Shown here piece by piece: positions 467 through 41,484 of a DNA stretch of 64,000 nucleotides. The notes beneath the pieces are model-generated. The model was given only the letters and a program-made list of their open reading frames with translations. It ran no database searches and was not told the DNA's origin. A program made the position numbers and the translations under genes. The first letter of the stretch is position 1. Each line of letters opens with the position of its first letter. Source of the stretch: Sulfurihydrogenibium azorense Az-Fu1 (GTDB lineage: Bacteria > Aquificota > Aquificia > Aquificales > Hydrogenothermaceae); the NCBI RefSeq assembly GCF_000021545.1, contig NC_012438.1, positions 434,001 through 498,000 on the forward strand. Reading direction: 5' to 3'.

Positions 467-493
467 GACTAAAAACCTGGTAAACCAAAGTGT

Positions 494-499
494 ATTATA
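494..499 (-). promoter_or_regulatory. Possible -10 box for guaB at the transposon end
   Basis: A perfect TATAAT on the minus strand overlaps the stop codon of the upstream tnpB and lies about 27 bases before the chosen guaB start. No good -35 is visible at 16-18 bases. It may be formed by the end of the element plus the first flanking base. This is inference only. Confidence 0.35.
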
Positions 500-2177
500 G
501 ATTCATACACTCTGGGCTGGGGTATTTGTATTCCGCCTTATTCAGATGCAAGCAACCCCCAGCTGGCGGTATTTTGCTTGCATCATAGCCCCTACCCCAA
601 GAAGTAGGAACTATCCCTAAATCGTGTTTCAAATCTTCTATTGCCTCTTTGGTTTTGAAACACGATTTATTTACTACCCTATCCCAATCCCCTTCTACCA
701 GTATTGGCTTTAAGGGTGATAAGTCTCTACTTAAAGACTTACCCAGAATAGGGATAGTAAGGGCTACCTTTACAACTTGCCACAGTTTATAGCTTGTCCA
801 ATACAAGCCCCTCATCTGTTCCTTCCTCTGGTTTACAGCCTCTTGGGTCTGTGGCTCACTGTAAAGGCTTTGGATTATCCTTATCTGTTTACTTAAATCG
901 TTTATATTTTTTATTATTGGTTTTCTTTTATACTGATTGTTTTCTGTTTTTAACTTCTCTTGTGTTTTTTGTTTTTCTTCTTGTAGTCTATCTTGTGCAA
1001 AGTTTAAATACTCTCTGTCTGTTATTAGTTTTTCGTAATTCTTAGGTAGTTTTTCTTTAAATCCTAATGCTTTTCTTCCTATTACAAATGCTCCTGCTAT
1101 GTCTTTGTCTAAATTATACTGTGGTGCATACTTTAATGACCCTACAATAGATGTGTATGCTGGATTTACTTGTATTACTTGTATTCTCTTTCTTTTGGCA
1201 AGTATTTTTATCTTGTCTAACAAGCCTTTGTATATCCATTGTTGTTTTATTTTTCTCAGTTTCTTACTCCCATCTCCTTTACTGCCTTTTGGTATGTCTT
1301 TTAAGTTTTCTATTGCTATTGCCTTATTTCTTTCTTTAGCAATGTCTGTTATTTGGTGTGCTATTTGCCAAGATATGTATTCTCTTTGGTTTTTTGTCTT
1401 GTTTAAAAGATTGTGTAAATATAATTTCTCTATATTTTCTAAATTGCCATCTTTCTTTACAAAAGCCATTGCTATGTGAAATGGATTTGCGTTTATGTCT
1501 ATCCCTATTACTCCGTTGTCTTTTGTTATTATTGGTTCTTCTGTCTTTATTTCTTCGTAGTTTATAAATGCGTAGAAATCGTTGTTTATCTTTCTTATCT
1601 CTACTGAGTATGGGAAATACTGGTTTGTTTGGTTTGCTTGTATTAGGTCTGCTATGAAGTTAGTCCATTTATCGTTTTGTCTGTTTACTGCTCTTTTTAT
1701 GTTTGCTTTTATCCAGTTTCTTTCTCCTGTGTTTATTCTTAATATTATTTTATCTTTCTCAAATTCTATTCTTGTATTTAGGTTTCCTTTTTTAGATTTA
1801 TCTCCTCTTGAGTATAGGCAGTGCTTTCTTCTATCTTGCCATTTTTGTTTTAGTTTTTCTCTGTATTTTCCGTTTATGTGTTTGTTTTTAAGGAGTTGAA
1901 ATAGTCTTTTACCTCCAAATATAACTTTTTTAGGATTTTGTTCTCTTTCTATACAGTTGTTTATTAGCCACTTTGCTTTGAATATTGCATCGTCTACGTA
2001 TCTTGAGTTTATGTTAAACATTTTTTGTAAATCTTTTTTAAGGTCTTTTCTTGAGTGTCCTTCAAGTAGTCTGTTGTATGAGTATTTAAAGCAGGAAGAG
2101 AATTTTCTCATTAGGTTTATCAACGTTTGTTTGTCTTTTTCGTTTTCAAAAGTTAGTTTGCAGTGTAGTGTTATCAT
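495..2177 (-). CDS. tnpB: TnpB-type RNA-guided nuclease/accessory protein, IS605/IS1341 group (no zinc finger)
   Basis: A 560-residue OrfB/TnpB protein of IS200/IS605-type elements. The RuvC-like core shows motif I ([11 protein letters not shown], Asp), motif II ([10 protein letters not shown], Glu) and a motif III region ([18 protein letters not shown], Asp present). The C4 zinc finger of typical TnpB is absent and replaced by a [10 protein letters not shown]-type segment, as in the larger IS1341-like lineage. About 130 residues follow motif III, and the last 35 codons overlap the candidate guide RNA. No tnpA transposase is nearby, so the element is not self-mobile. Start ATG at 2177 follows GAGAAAG. 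The three catalytic acidic residues suggest an active nuclease, but activity is not shown. Confidence 0.85.
496..600 (-). ncRNA. Candidate omega RNA (reRNA) at the 3' end of tnpB
   Basis: TnpB nucleases use a guide RNA transcribed from the 3' end of their own element, usually overlapping the tnpB coding end. On the minus strand this stretch has several perfect pairings: an 11-bp hairpin (584-574 with 555-545); CCGCC in its loop (569-565) with GGCGG downstream (537-533), which makes a pseudoknot; and GCTGGGG (563-557) with CCCCAGC (522-516). An alternative outer helix pairs TGGGGTA (599-593) with TACCCCA (524-518) and competes with the last one. The guide would start at the element end and run into the guaB 5' region. 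Structure is seen directly; the guide-RNA role is inferred from position. A similar motif occurs in the aclB leader. Confidence 0.6.
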
Positions 2178-38096: not shown

Positions 38097-38136
38097 TTCA
38101 CAACTCCTTAATTTTAAAACAACGTTTTATTATTTC

Positions 38137-38166
38137 ATTATAACATTATGTTTTACAGTAAGTCAA
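38137..38166 (-). promoter_or_regulatory. Promoter of icd-osmC-cfiBA
   Basis: TTGACT (38166-38161) and TATAAT (38142-38137) with 18 bases between, on the minus strand, 41 bases before the icd start. A strong match to a housekeeping promoter. An AAAAC-AAC-GTTTT inverted repeat lies just downstream of the expected start (38116-38128). Confidence 0.78.
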
Positions 38167-38206
38167 GAAAAATCAAACAGTGTTTTATTATTAAATAAAA
38201 TTATGC

Positions 38207-38212
38207 TATAAT
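38207..38212 (+). promoter_or_regulatory. -10 box of aclBA
   Basis: TATAAT on the plus strand; transcription would begin near 38219, at the very start of the structured leader. No good -35 is present, so an activator may be needed. Confidence 0.6.
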
Positions 38213-38225
38213 ACTCTGTATACAG

Positions 38226-38290
38226 TACCGCCTGCCGGAATTAATGGCGGAATAAAAATATTCCGGCCTACAAACCTCTATAGGTTTGTA
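38226..38290 (+). ncRNA. Structured leader of aclBA, pseudoknot plus hairpin
   Basis: Three perfect pairings: CCGCC (38228-38232) with GGCGG (38246-38250); GCCGGAAT (38234-38241) with ATTCCGGC (38260-38267), which crosses the first and makes an H-type pseudoknot or a switch; and TACAAACCT (38269-38277) with AGGTTTGTA (38282-38290). The aclB RBS follows at once. The first two helices and the joining GGCGGAATAaAAATA closely match the 3' end of tnpB at 511-570 on the minus strand. It does not match a riboswitch I know. It is either a regulatory RNA or a transposon-end remnant. Confidence 0.65.
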
Positions 38291-38306
38291 AGAAGGGAAG
38301 GGTAGT

Positions 38307-39614
38307 ATGGCTCAGAGAGGAATAAGAGAATATGATGGAAAGAGAATTATAGCCCAAAACTGGAAAGATTACTTTGGTGATGCCTTTGAGTACGATTTTA
38401 AATCTGTGTTAGTAACTCCTGAAACAGATTTTGAGAAACTTCCTGAAGAACATCCTTGGTTAAAGACCACTCCTTTGGTAGCAAAACCGGACATGCTTTT
38501 TGGAAAAAGAGGAAAGTTAGGTTTAGTTTTATTTAAAATCAACGAACCGGGAGACGTTACTTACGAAGATGCGGTTAAGTGGATAAAACAAAAGATGCAG
38601 GAAGAAGTTGAGATTAACGGTGTAAAGGGGCATCTTACACATTTTTTAATAGAGCCTTTTGTTCCTCACAAACCAGAAGAAGAGTACTATGTAGCATTCT
38701 CTATGGGTGATGATTACGATACTGTTTACATGTCAGCCTTTGGTGGAATAGATGTTGAAGAGAACTGGGATAAAGTTTCTGAAGTAAAAATACCTCCTAC
38801 AGCTTCAGATGAAGAGATAGAAAAACTTATAAAACAAAACGTTCCAAAAGAGATAAAAGATAAAGAAAAATACGCAGATTTTGTAATTAGAGCTTATAAA
38901 ATGTTTAGAGACTTACATTTTGTTTACTTTGAAATAAACCCATTGGTTTTAGTTGGAAATAAGGCTTACCTATTAGACTTTGTTGGTAAAGTTGACGATA
39001 CTGCAGGATTTGTTGTTGGCAAAAAATGGGGAGAGCTTGAGTTTCCGTCTGGGTTTGGAAGAGATCTAACACCAGAGGAAAAGTATATAAAAGAGTTAGA
39101 TGAAAAATCTGGTTCTTCTCTAAAGTTAACGATACTCAATCCAGAAGGAAGAATATGGACATTAGTAGCAGGTGGTGGAGCTTCTGTTGTTTATGCTGAT
39201 ACAGTAGCAGATATGGGATATGTTAACGAGCTTGCAAACTACGGTGAGTATTCAGGAAACCCAACAAGAACAGAAACCAGAGAGTATGTAAAAACAGTTT
39301 TAGACCTTATGACAAGAAACAAACATCCATCTGGAAAACCTAAAATACTTTTAATAGGTGGAGCGATAGCTAACTTTACAGATGTTGCCAAAACCTTTGA
39401 TGGAATAATAGATGCATTTAAAGAGTACGCAGAAAAAATGAGGCAAGTGGGAGTAAGAATTTACGTAAGAAGAGGTGGACCTAACTACGAAGTGGGACTT
39501 AAAAAAATTAAACAGGCAGCTGAAGAACTTGGACTACCAATAGAAGTTTATGGTCCAGAACTTCATATGACAGATATAGTAAGAAAAGCGTTAGAAGAAG
39601 AAAAAGTAGCATAA
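38307..39614 (+). CDS. aclB: ATP-citrate lyase beta (small) subunit
   Basis: 435 residues. ATP-citrate lyase splits citrate to acetyl-CoA and oxaloacetate and closes the reductive TCA cycle. This subunit has the ATP-grasp and CoA-ligase beta-type parts: an N-terminal half resembling succinyl-CoA synthetase beta (LVAKPDMLFGKRGKLGLV, FEINPLVLV) and a C-terminal part (VAGGGASVVYADTVADMG, LLIGGAIANFTDVAKTF). In Aquificota its presence marks Hydrogenothermaceae-type cycles, in contrast to the citryl-CoA synthetase/lyase pair of Aquificaceae. Confidence 0.93.
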   Translation: MAQRGIREYDGKRIIAQNWKDYFGDAFEYDFKSVLVTPETDFEKLPEEHPWLKTTPLVAKPDMLFGKRGKLGLVLFKINEPGDVTYEDAVKWIKQKMQEEVEINGVKGHLTHFLIEPFVPHKPEEEYYVAFSMGDDYDTVYMSAFGGIDVEENWDKVSEVKIPPTASDEEIEKLIKQNVPKEIKDKEKYADFVIRAYKMFRDLHFVYFEINPLVLVGNKAYLLDFVGKVDDTAGFVVGKKWGELEFPSGFGRDLTPEEKYIKELDEKSGSSLKLTILNPEGRIWTLVAGGGASVVYADTVADMGYVNELANYGEYSGNPTRTETREYVKTVLDLMTRNKHPSGKPKILLIGGAIANFTDVAKTFDGIIDAFKEYAEKMRQVGVRIYVRRGGPNYEVGLKKIKQAAEELGLPIEVYGPELHMTDIVRKALEEEKVA

Positions 39615-39633: not shown

Positions 39634-41484
39634 ATGAGCAAACCTGAATACTTACTTTTTGACAGAAACACTAAGGCTATTTTCTGGAACCTTAACACAA
39701 ATGCTATTCAAAGGATGTTAGACTACGACTATGTAGTTGGAAGAAGTCCAAGTATAGCAGCAATAGTAGCTCCAACTTCAGAAAGATCTTTTGAAAAGTT
39801 TTTCTATGGAACAAAAGAGATAATAATACCTATTTATAAATCTACAAAAGAAGCTGCAAAATTCCATCCAGAAGCTGATGTTTTATTAAACTTTGCTTCT
39901 TTTAGAACGGCGTATCCTGTTACATTAGAAGCATTTGAGATACCTACAATAAGAACGATCATAATCACTGCAGAAGGTATACCAGAAAGATTTGCTAGAG
40001 ATATGAGGATAAAAGCTAAACAACTTGGTAAGTGGATTATTGGTCCTGCTACAGTTGGAGGTATAGCACCAGGAGCTTTCAGAATAGCAAACACAGGTGG
40101 AACAATAGAAAACATAATTGCGTCTAAACTCCATAGACCCGGTTCAGTTGGATTAGTGACAAGATCAGGAGGTTTATTTAACGAACTTTCCAACATAATC
40201 GCAAGAAACGCTGATGGTGTAGCAGAAGGTATAGCTATAGGTGGAGATAGATTTCCAGGGTCAGACTTTTTAGACCATATGCTAAGATTTGAGAAAAACC
40301 CTCAAGTTGAATTTATGATACTTCTTGGAGAAGTTGGTGGAGAGGCGGAGTACAAAGTAGTAGAAGCTGTTAAAAACGGACTTATTACAAAACCTGTGAT
40401 AGGTTGGTGTATTGGAACAATATCGAAATTCTTTGGAGGAGAAGTTCAATTTGGACACGCCGGAGCTAAGGCAGGAGTTGACAGAGAAACAGCAGACGCT
40501 AAAAATAGAGCAATGAGAGAAGTAGGAATCCACGTTCCAAACAACTTTAACGAACTTCCTCACGTAATAAAAGGAATATATGAAATGTTAAGAGGTGAAG
40601 GAAAAATCCGGCCTGTTGTAGAACCGGAAGTTCCTCCAATTCCTGAAGATCTCTCAAAAGCCATCAGAGAAGGAAAAGTAAGAAAACCTACAAACTTTAT
40701 ATGTACAATCTCTGATGATAGAGGAGAAGAAGCTACTTACTGTGGAGTTCCTATAAGTGAAGTTATTGAAAAAGGTTTAACGATAGCAGATGTTATAGGA
40801 TTACTTTGGTTTAAGCGTAAATTCCCTACTTGGGCATCTAATTTTATAGATATGGTTATTAGAGTAGTTGCAGACCATGGACCAGCAGTAGCAGGAGCTC
40901 ACAACGTAAAAGTAACAGCAAGAGCCGGAAAAGACCTAATGTCTTCGTTGGCAACAGGTATACTAGCAATAGGTCCAAGATTTGGAGGAGCTATAGACGG
41001 AGCTGCAAAATACTTTAAAATGGCTTATGAAAAGAACATGTTACCTCACGAATTTGTAGAGTATATGAAGAATGTTGAAAAAATACCTATTCCGGGAATA
41101 GGACACAGGGTAAAATCTACAAAAAATCCTGATAAAAGGGTAGAACTTTTAAAAGATTATGCTAGAAGAAACTTTCCTAAGGTTGAGCTTTTAGACTATG
41201 CGTTAGAAGTTGAAAAAGTAACAACCTCTAAGAAAGAGAACCTTATACTAAACGTTGACGGAACAATTGGTGTTTTACTAGTTGACCTGTTTAAAACTAT
41301 AGGTTACTCTAACGAAGAGATAGATAATATGATAGAAGCAGGTGCATTTAACGCTTTCTTCGTTCTTGGAAGATCTATAGGATTTATAGGTCACTACTTA
41401 GACGAAAAACGTTTAGATATGCCACTTTACAGACATCCAACTGATGATATCCTTTACGATGTAAAAAGACCTGAAGGAGTATAA
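39634..41484 (+). CDS. aclA: ATP-citrate lyase alpha (large) subunit
   Basis: 616 residues: an N-terminal succinyl-CoA synthetase alpha-like domain with the phospho-histidine loop FGHAGAKAG, and a C-terminal citrate synthase-like domain (IGPRFGGAIDGAAKYF, IPIPGIGHRVKS, GRSIGFIGHYLDE). It carries the phosphoryl and citryl intermediates and performs the cleavage. AAGGAGG lies before the ATG, 19 bases after aclB. Confidence 0.95.
   Translation: MSKPEYLLFDRNTKAIFWNLNTNAIQRMLDYDYVVGRSPSIAAIVAPTSERSFEKFFYGTKEIIIPIYKSTKEAAKFHPEADVLLNFASFRTAYPVTLEAFEIPTIRTIIITAEGIPERFARDMRIKAKQLGKWIIGPATVGGIAPGAFRIANTGGTIENIIASKLHRPGSVGLVTRSGGLFNELSNIIARNADGVAEGIAIGGDRFPGSDFLDHMLRFEKNPQVEFMILLGEVGGEAEYKVVEAVKNGLITKPVIGWCIGTISKFFGGEVQFGHAGAKAGVDRETADAKNRAMREVGIHVPNNFNELPHVIKGIYEMLRGEGKIRPVVEPEVPPIPEDLSKAIREGKVRKPTNFICTISDDRGEEATYCGVPISEVIEKGLTIADVIGLLWFKRKFPTWASNFIDMVIRVVADHGPAVAGAHNVKVTARAGKDLMSSLATGILAIGPRFGGAIDGAAKYFKMAYEKNMLPHEFVEYMKNVEKIPIPGIGHRVKSTKNPDKRVELLKDYARRNFPKVELLDYALEVEKVTTSKKENLILNVDGTIGVLLVDLFKTIGYSNEEIDNMIEAGAFNAFFVLGRSIGFIGHYLDEKRLDMPLYRHPTDDILYDVKRPEGV

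Follow-up and report, generated by a model that had tools for sequence, protein, structure and literature searches.

Cas12 descends from TnpB elements. Among these, IS607 TnpB elements with structured right-end RNAs have been described, including ISFba1 with its RAGATH-18 RNA (PMC11061315) and ISXfa1 (PMC10711439). Here we report on a 64,000-nucleotide (nt) stretch of the Sulfurihydrogenibium azorense Az-Fu1 genome (NC_012438.1, positions 434,001 to 498,000; hereafter, the window), in which the right end of an IS607-like TnpB element beside guaB and the 5′ leader of the ATP citrate lyase genes aclBA carry the same RNA. The element shares with the described ones the GG crossover, the AGGAG(G) left flank, the TnpB RuvC motifs, and a structured pseudoknot right-end RNA beside the (here putative) guide. 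It differs in that the RNA of the window had no match to the RAGATH-18 model or to any other Rfam model, at the gathering threshold or at a permissive one (E up to 5); its tnpB frame overlaps the right-end RNA, whereas theirs does not; and standalone copies of the RNA also serve as messenger RNA (mRNA) leaders. The tnpB right-end RNA and the aclBA leader are one RNA family, and we give a probability of roughly 55% to the reading that the family has two contexts, the right end of TnpB elements and a retained translation-initiation leader.

A preliminary description, made from the letters of the window, had pointed out a shared motif at the tnpB end and before aclB, and both copies were present where it placed them. 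The right-end RNA occupies 513–585 on the minus strand (76.0 bits, E 3.8e-16 with covariance model R2, and covariation), and the aclBA leader pseudoknot occupies 38212–38270 on the plus strand (56.7 bits, E 1.3e-11, with orthologous leaders in six of seven genomes). Read on the minus strand, the tnpB copy runs GATGCAAGC-AAAATA-CCGCC-A-GCTGGGG-GTT-GCTTGCATC and then TGAATAA-GGCGG-AATACAAATA-CCCCAGC, followed 3′ of the pseudoknot by the hairpin CCAGAGTGTA...TACACTTTGG and the terminus TTTACCAGG. The aclB copy runs TA-CCGCC-T-GCCGGAAT-TAAT-GGCGG-AATAAAAAT-ATTCCGGC, followed by the hairpin TACAAACC...GGTTTGTA, the ribosome-binding site, and ATG. The CCGCC/GGCGG pairing (P1) holds in both copies (569–565 with 537–533 at tnpB; 38228–38232 with 38246–38250 at aclB), and the second helix (P2) differs in sequence yet pairs in each, as GCTGGGG/CCCCAGC at tnpB (563–557 with 522–516) and as GCCGGAAT/ATTCCGGC at aclB (38234–38241 with 38260–38267). 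The common block GGCGGAATA-n-AAATA is exact as it had been reported, with 14 of 15 positions identical between the copies, but the TAA aligned together with it, before GGCGG, is shifted by one base. Further features were found that the earlier reading had not included: a third helix, P0, at the tnpB end (584–576 with 553–545; none in the aclBA leader), a 3′ hairpin, P3, in both copies (485–515 on the minus strand, 515–506 pairing with 494–485; 38269–38290 on the plus strand, 38269–38276 pairing with 38283–38290), and the orthologues of the aclB leader. A hairpin equivalent to P3 at the right end is present in nearly all copies.

The resemblance of the two copies is beyond chance, because the joint pattern is absent from shuffled sequence and its reversed form had no match. 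The pattern CCGCCN{10,40}GGCGGAATA occurred twice in the window and in none of 100 dinucleotide shuffles of the window; it had nine matches in the 1.64-Mb source genome and was present in 31 of the 41 family genomes, and the reversed control pattern had no matches.

Covariance models were built from 30 sequences (R1) and 68 sequences (R2). In alignment A3, which comprises 106 standalone leaders (100 distinct) and was fitted to P2, favoring P2 and leaving P1 outside the fitted structure, 99.2% of the P1/P2 cells were paired. Two-sided changes were found at eight of the 12 P1/P2 pairs, amounting to 113 compensatory cells compared to 32.7 in shuffles and at most seven with the partners slid, which strongly supports the proposal that the sequence had changed with pairing kept. 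The variable P1 pair had turned from C-G to G-C in 15 of the aligned sequences. P0, sought independently, had at least six base pairs (bp) in 91/106 leaders and at least 9 bp in 68/106, compared to 0.8% of shuffles at the latter length, and about 70 different P0 sequences were found; P3 stems in leaders also exceeded those of shuffles in length. RNA structure is thus supported by covariation. The family layout consists of P1 (CCGCC/GGCGG), a variable P2, and usually P0, followed by P3, the ribosome-binding site, and the start codon. P0, P1, and P2 cross one another in the order 0-1-2-0-1-2, and P0 is optional, since it is missing in the aclB leaders and some napA leaders. Among the unpaired bases, the constant ones are approximately AAAUR 5′ of P1 and, in the loop that follows P1, RAUAnAAnUA. 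Plain folding of the aclB leader (z −2.1) is blind to pseudoknots and was not used as evidence.

The element beside guaB extends on the minus strand from its left end at 2282 (TTAAAAACAG...) to its right end at 478, followed by the common GG at 477–476. It encodes a TnpB-family protein of 560 amino acids (495–2177, minus strand) that matched TIGR01766 and TIGR01765 above the cut-off and NF040570 weakly, below its cut-off; the D, E, and D motifs were readable, and Pfam gave no TnpB-domain or zinc-ribbon match. The tnpB frame reads through the pseudoknot into P3, so that its C-terminal codons overlap the right-end RNA. The original Shine–Dalgarno sequence of guaB, AGGAGG, stands at 2283–2288, and the 5′ part of guaB (IMP dehydrogenase; Pfam IMPDH) stands at 2–466, both on the minus strand. 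In relative G038 the site is empty, and its sequence (...CAACAGGAGG-TTTTTAGTCTTGC) is identical on each side and matches the joined flanks; the site is also empty, with AGGAGG, in G034, G035, G036, G037, and G039 (six relatives in all). The element was inserted between matching GG dinucleotides with no target duplication, exactly in the Shine–Dalgarno sequence, and it splits guaB from AGGAGG. Such a site agrees with two published features: IS607 elements cross over at GG (PMC10711439), and related TnpBs have AGGAG as their target-adjacent motif (PMC11061315). At the end of the element, CCAGG (476–480, minus strand) forms a Shine–Dalgarno-like replacement 9 nt upstream of the guaB TTG start (466), and the same terminus was found before other start codons. 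The suggestion that guaB has a regulatory RNA of its own was not upheld; the copy is there because the element occupies the guaB ribosome-binding site.

The same arrangement was seen in other copies. All 11 readable left ends had a Shine–Dalgarno-like left flank: GGAGG, or a sequence close to it, precedes TTAACAACAGTTG or one of its variants. In most copies, a start codon was present within a few bases of the right end. The source genome has eight right-end copies, five with a full-length TnpB frame and three short derivatives with only the 3′ part of tnpB. The window copy has no serine recombinase TnpA; at four other loci (L095, L096, L097, and L099), the upstream frame ends, by eye, like an IS607 TnpA serine recombinase. 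Three right-end copies (G000:C1 1608230, 1610476, and 1616361; L087 and L088) were located in or beside the ribosomal-protein operon of the source genome, and two of them are short derivatives with most of tnpB deleted.

On the plus strand, the leader precedes aclB (38307–39614; ATP citrate lyase, ATP-grasp and citrate-binding domains by Pfam) and aclA (39634–41484; second subunit, Pfam Citrate_synt and Ligase_CoA). A likely −10 box, TATAAT, stands at 38207–38212 and is kept across the genus, and a purine-rich ribosome-binding site stands at 38290–38302. The leader was found between the −10 box and the aclB start codon in six of seven genomes of the genus and was absent in G034 and in the other genera read at the aclB locus. 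P1 was unchanged among these leaders, and P2 and P3 were replaced with pairing kept: P2 was GCCGGAA(T)/(A)TTCCGGC in three genomes and GCTGGG/CCCAGC in three, and P3 was TACAAACC/GGTTTGTA or near it in one group and TGTAGC/GCTACA in the other, differing from the window in G035, G037, and G039.

The search of further genomes by covariance model, which the preliminary description had suggested, including the genes after the matches, yielded many matches with compensatory changes. Of 136 Aquificota genomes, 85 had R2 matches (among the 88 good genomes, 58 did), with a maximum of 35 copies per genome. Using R1, standalone leaders were found before napA in g1, g3, g5, g7, and g8; before rpoA in 7/7 genomes of the genus and two of g6; before infC, with P1 as GCGCC/GGCGC; and before one gene in g4, with P1 as CTGCC/GGCAG or similar. 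The napA leader was kept, with P2 replaced, across five genera and was present at 18 of the 22 napA genes of the family; one of these 18 leaders, in a 55%-complete assembly (G030), has a disturbed P2 strand. Most of the copies read in other families are far from any TnpB and immediately precede a start codon. The genes with a leader, named in part by profile match and otherwise by eye, included htpX (all seven g16 genomes read), hsp20 (three g13 genomes), infC, hfq (twice in G091), rpsT, rpsU, rplY, rpmF, rpsR, rpsK, rpoA, and rho, and further ftsH, nuoB, trxA, metE, glyA, ilvC, ndk, thrC, metF, leuB, and others. Beyond Aquificota, a scan with the exact pattern yielded 72 stretches, and R2 found 1–23 copies in each of the 13 plausible source genomes. 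No R2 match was found in four unrelated genomes (19.1 Mb) whose exact-pattern matches looked accidental or in 135 kb of leader-less aclB, napA, and guaB loci, and viral contigs had no match to the exact pattern. A deltaproteobacterial genome (G144, the source of L189) has 12 AT-rich copies, several of them before genes without a nearby TnpB match. In four Thermosediminibacterales-type genomes (L178, L205, L213, and L220), a LigB/AMMECR1-domain gene is preceded by the same leader.

Leaders are placed before start codons. In 104 of 106, an open reading frame begins 5–46 nt (median 32) past P2, where the start is that of the longest frame and individual distances may be off, and a Shine–Dalgarno-like sequence is usually present. 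In 46/106 leaders, a preceding frame has its stop codon between −14 and +24 nt relative to the P0 edge, and a TATAAT-like box was present 2–14 nt upstream of the P0 edge in 23 of the remaining 60, compared to six in a control window. The position of stop codons and promoters at the P0 edge therefore suggests that the retained unit extends approximately from P0 to the ribosome-binding site.

The right ends and the standalone leaders are evidently akin in sequence. In G091, the standalone copies before a 2-oxoacid:ferredoxin-type gene, another gene, and nuoB keep the element terminus TAACCAGG, and a second TnpB (P0002, in G042) has a right end close to the leaders of G091 and G055. These two observations favor a direction from element to leader, which we infer. 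Leaders also persist without a related TnpB: G013, G015, G016, and G024 have leaders and no match to either TnpB query, and G091 has 35 leaders and only weak TnpB matches (best E 2.4e-5).

The preliminary description had left two possibilities, a domesticated TnpB end or a cis-regulatory RNA. Each was partly right, in that the RNA is both the right end of IS607-like elements and a standalone 5′ leader; a widespread leader before genes was confirmed, but regulation of the downstream gene remains a prediction. The RNA family forms the right end of IS607-like TnpB elements, whose point of insertion is the GG of Shine–Dalgarno sequences (AGGAGG), and from its right-end position it is probably the 3′ part of the guide RNA. 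Insertion would part a gene from its ribosome-binding site, and the right end would supply both a new leader, consisting of the crossing P0/P1/P2 and the hairpin P3, and CCAGG a few bases before the start codon. Upon loss of tnpB and the left end, a solo right end would stay as the 5′ leader of the gene, with selection acting to preserve its structure. A role in translation initiation or mRNA protection appears probable. The likeliest function is a constitutive translation-initiation leader, in which a rigid fold immediately upstream of the ribosome-binding site would keep that site accessible, aid 30S binding, and shield the mRNA. This function fits best because the right end replaces the ribosome-binding site, the fold is directly 5′ of the new one, and the leaders precede varied genes, many of them for translation; protection from decay is a near rival. 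A 5′ pseudoknot required for translation is known from tisB (PMC7708055). Several observations weigh against our interpretation. The loop varies less in sequence than a simple spacer would have to, which could mean a specific binding partner. As to direction, the same genes (rpoA, infC, rho, hfq, rpsT, and rpmF) recur across genera, and the G091 cores are nearly identical while P3 differs, so elements may have captured an ancient host leader. The absence of TnpB rests on two queries, and several of the genomes are drafts.

The constancy of the unpaired bases, the many G091 copies before translation and RNA genes, and the repeated occurrence before rpoA, infC, rho, and hfq in different genera would also suit a regulatory leader responsive to a ligand, to temperature, or to a protein (e.g., the ribosome or a global RNA-binding protein), through which translation of a housekeeping regulon would be controlled; its capture by TnpB elements would then be secondary. 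We consider this unlikely, as the leaders precede a mixed set of genes that varies from genus to genus, the ribosome-binding site is outside the fold with no consistent masking, and no Rfam riboswitch matched. A switch in which the P2 3′ strand masks the Shine–Dalgarno sequence was rejected, the excess being small (−6.80 compared to −6.44 kcal/mol in permuted leaders). A single-ligand riboswitch for amino-acid or carbon metabolism, considered from thrC, metF, leuB, and aclB, was dropped on the full gene list, in which ribosomal, RNA, protease, redox, and biosynthetic genes do not form the coherent set that one ligand calls for. Somewhat less probable again is a block to 5′-to-3′ mRNA decay, in which the crossing helices would halt an exonuclease and the downstream cistron would keep its ribosome-binding site. 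In many copies, the 5′ edge of P0 adjoins a promoter or an upstream stop codon, and crossing helices beside the ribosome-binding site suit both 5′-terminal and operon-internal copies, but the aclB leaders and some of the napA leaders have no P0.

Leaders that act only through TnpB, bound in trans for mRNA processing, repression, or guiding to targets, would explain why their core is the same as that of TnpB right ends. This is improbable given that leaders persist in genomes without a match to either TnpB query and that standalone leaders stop at P0, without the upstream part of the right end that elements and short derivatives keep. Least probable, and by our estimate very much so, are neutral transposon-end relics without function. 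Their patchy presence, including G034 without the aclB leader and 4/22 napA genes without a leader, is what relics would show, but P2 and P0 underwent compensatory replacement over several genera, the loop bases are invariant, and almost no half-broken napA copies exist (one, in the low-quality assembly G030).

The closest known leaders share some features with this family and differ in others. The preQ1 and SAM-II H-type pseudoknot riboswitches are alike in having a small pseudoknot with an A-rich loop directly upstream of a start codon; here, the ribosome-binding site is outside the fold, the gene set is mixed, and Rfam gave no match. Standby translation of Escherichia coli tisB (PMC7708055) is alike in that a 5′ pseudoknot supports translation initiation, as we propose for this family, but it concerns a single mRNA with a masked, distant ribosome-binding site rather than a family of leaders with the site directly adjacent. 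Alpha_RBS and its relatives are likewise pseudoknots before genes of ribosomal-protein operons (compare rpoA, infC, rpsK, and rpsT here), whereas in this family one core also precedes unrelated genes and no Rfam leader model matches. No description of the RNA family, or of Shine–Dalgarno targeting by such elements, was found in the open-licence literature. What appears to be undescribed is the RNA family, together with its use as a portable leader and its persistence on core genes; the element itself belongs to a known kind.

The family is abundant, supported by covariation, and absent from Rfam, and it would precede about 2% of the genes in one Aquificota genome (assuming approximately 1,600 genes). 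It links TnpB elements to the expression of host core genes and suggests how an element could reside before genes such as guaB, rpsM, and adk, by targeting the Shine–Dalgarno sequence and bringing a replacement. With a confidence that falls a little short of even odds, we tentatively propose mobile translation leaders: RNA-guided transposons that destroy ribosome-binding sites would bring a compact, triple-crossing pseudoknot to replace them, and hosts would keep these ends as permanent 5′ leaders on tens of core genes. In Aquificota and other thermophiles, transposons would thereby have built a layer of translation control.

A separate observation was made in the icd–aclB intergenic region of the window, where AAAACANNGTTTKATT palindromes are present at 38119–38192. 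At least one was found before aclB in this genus and also in some other genera of the family, and these palindromes are a possible operator for a regulator of the reductive tricarboxylic acid cycle.
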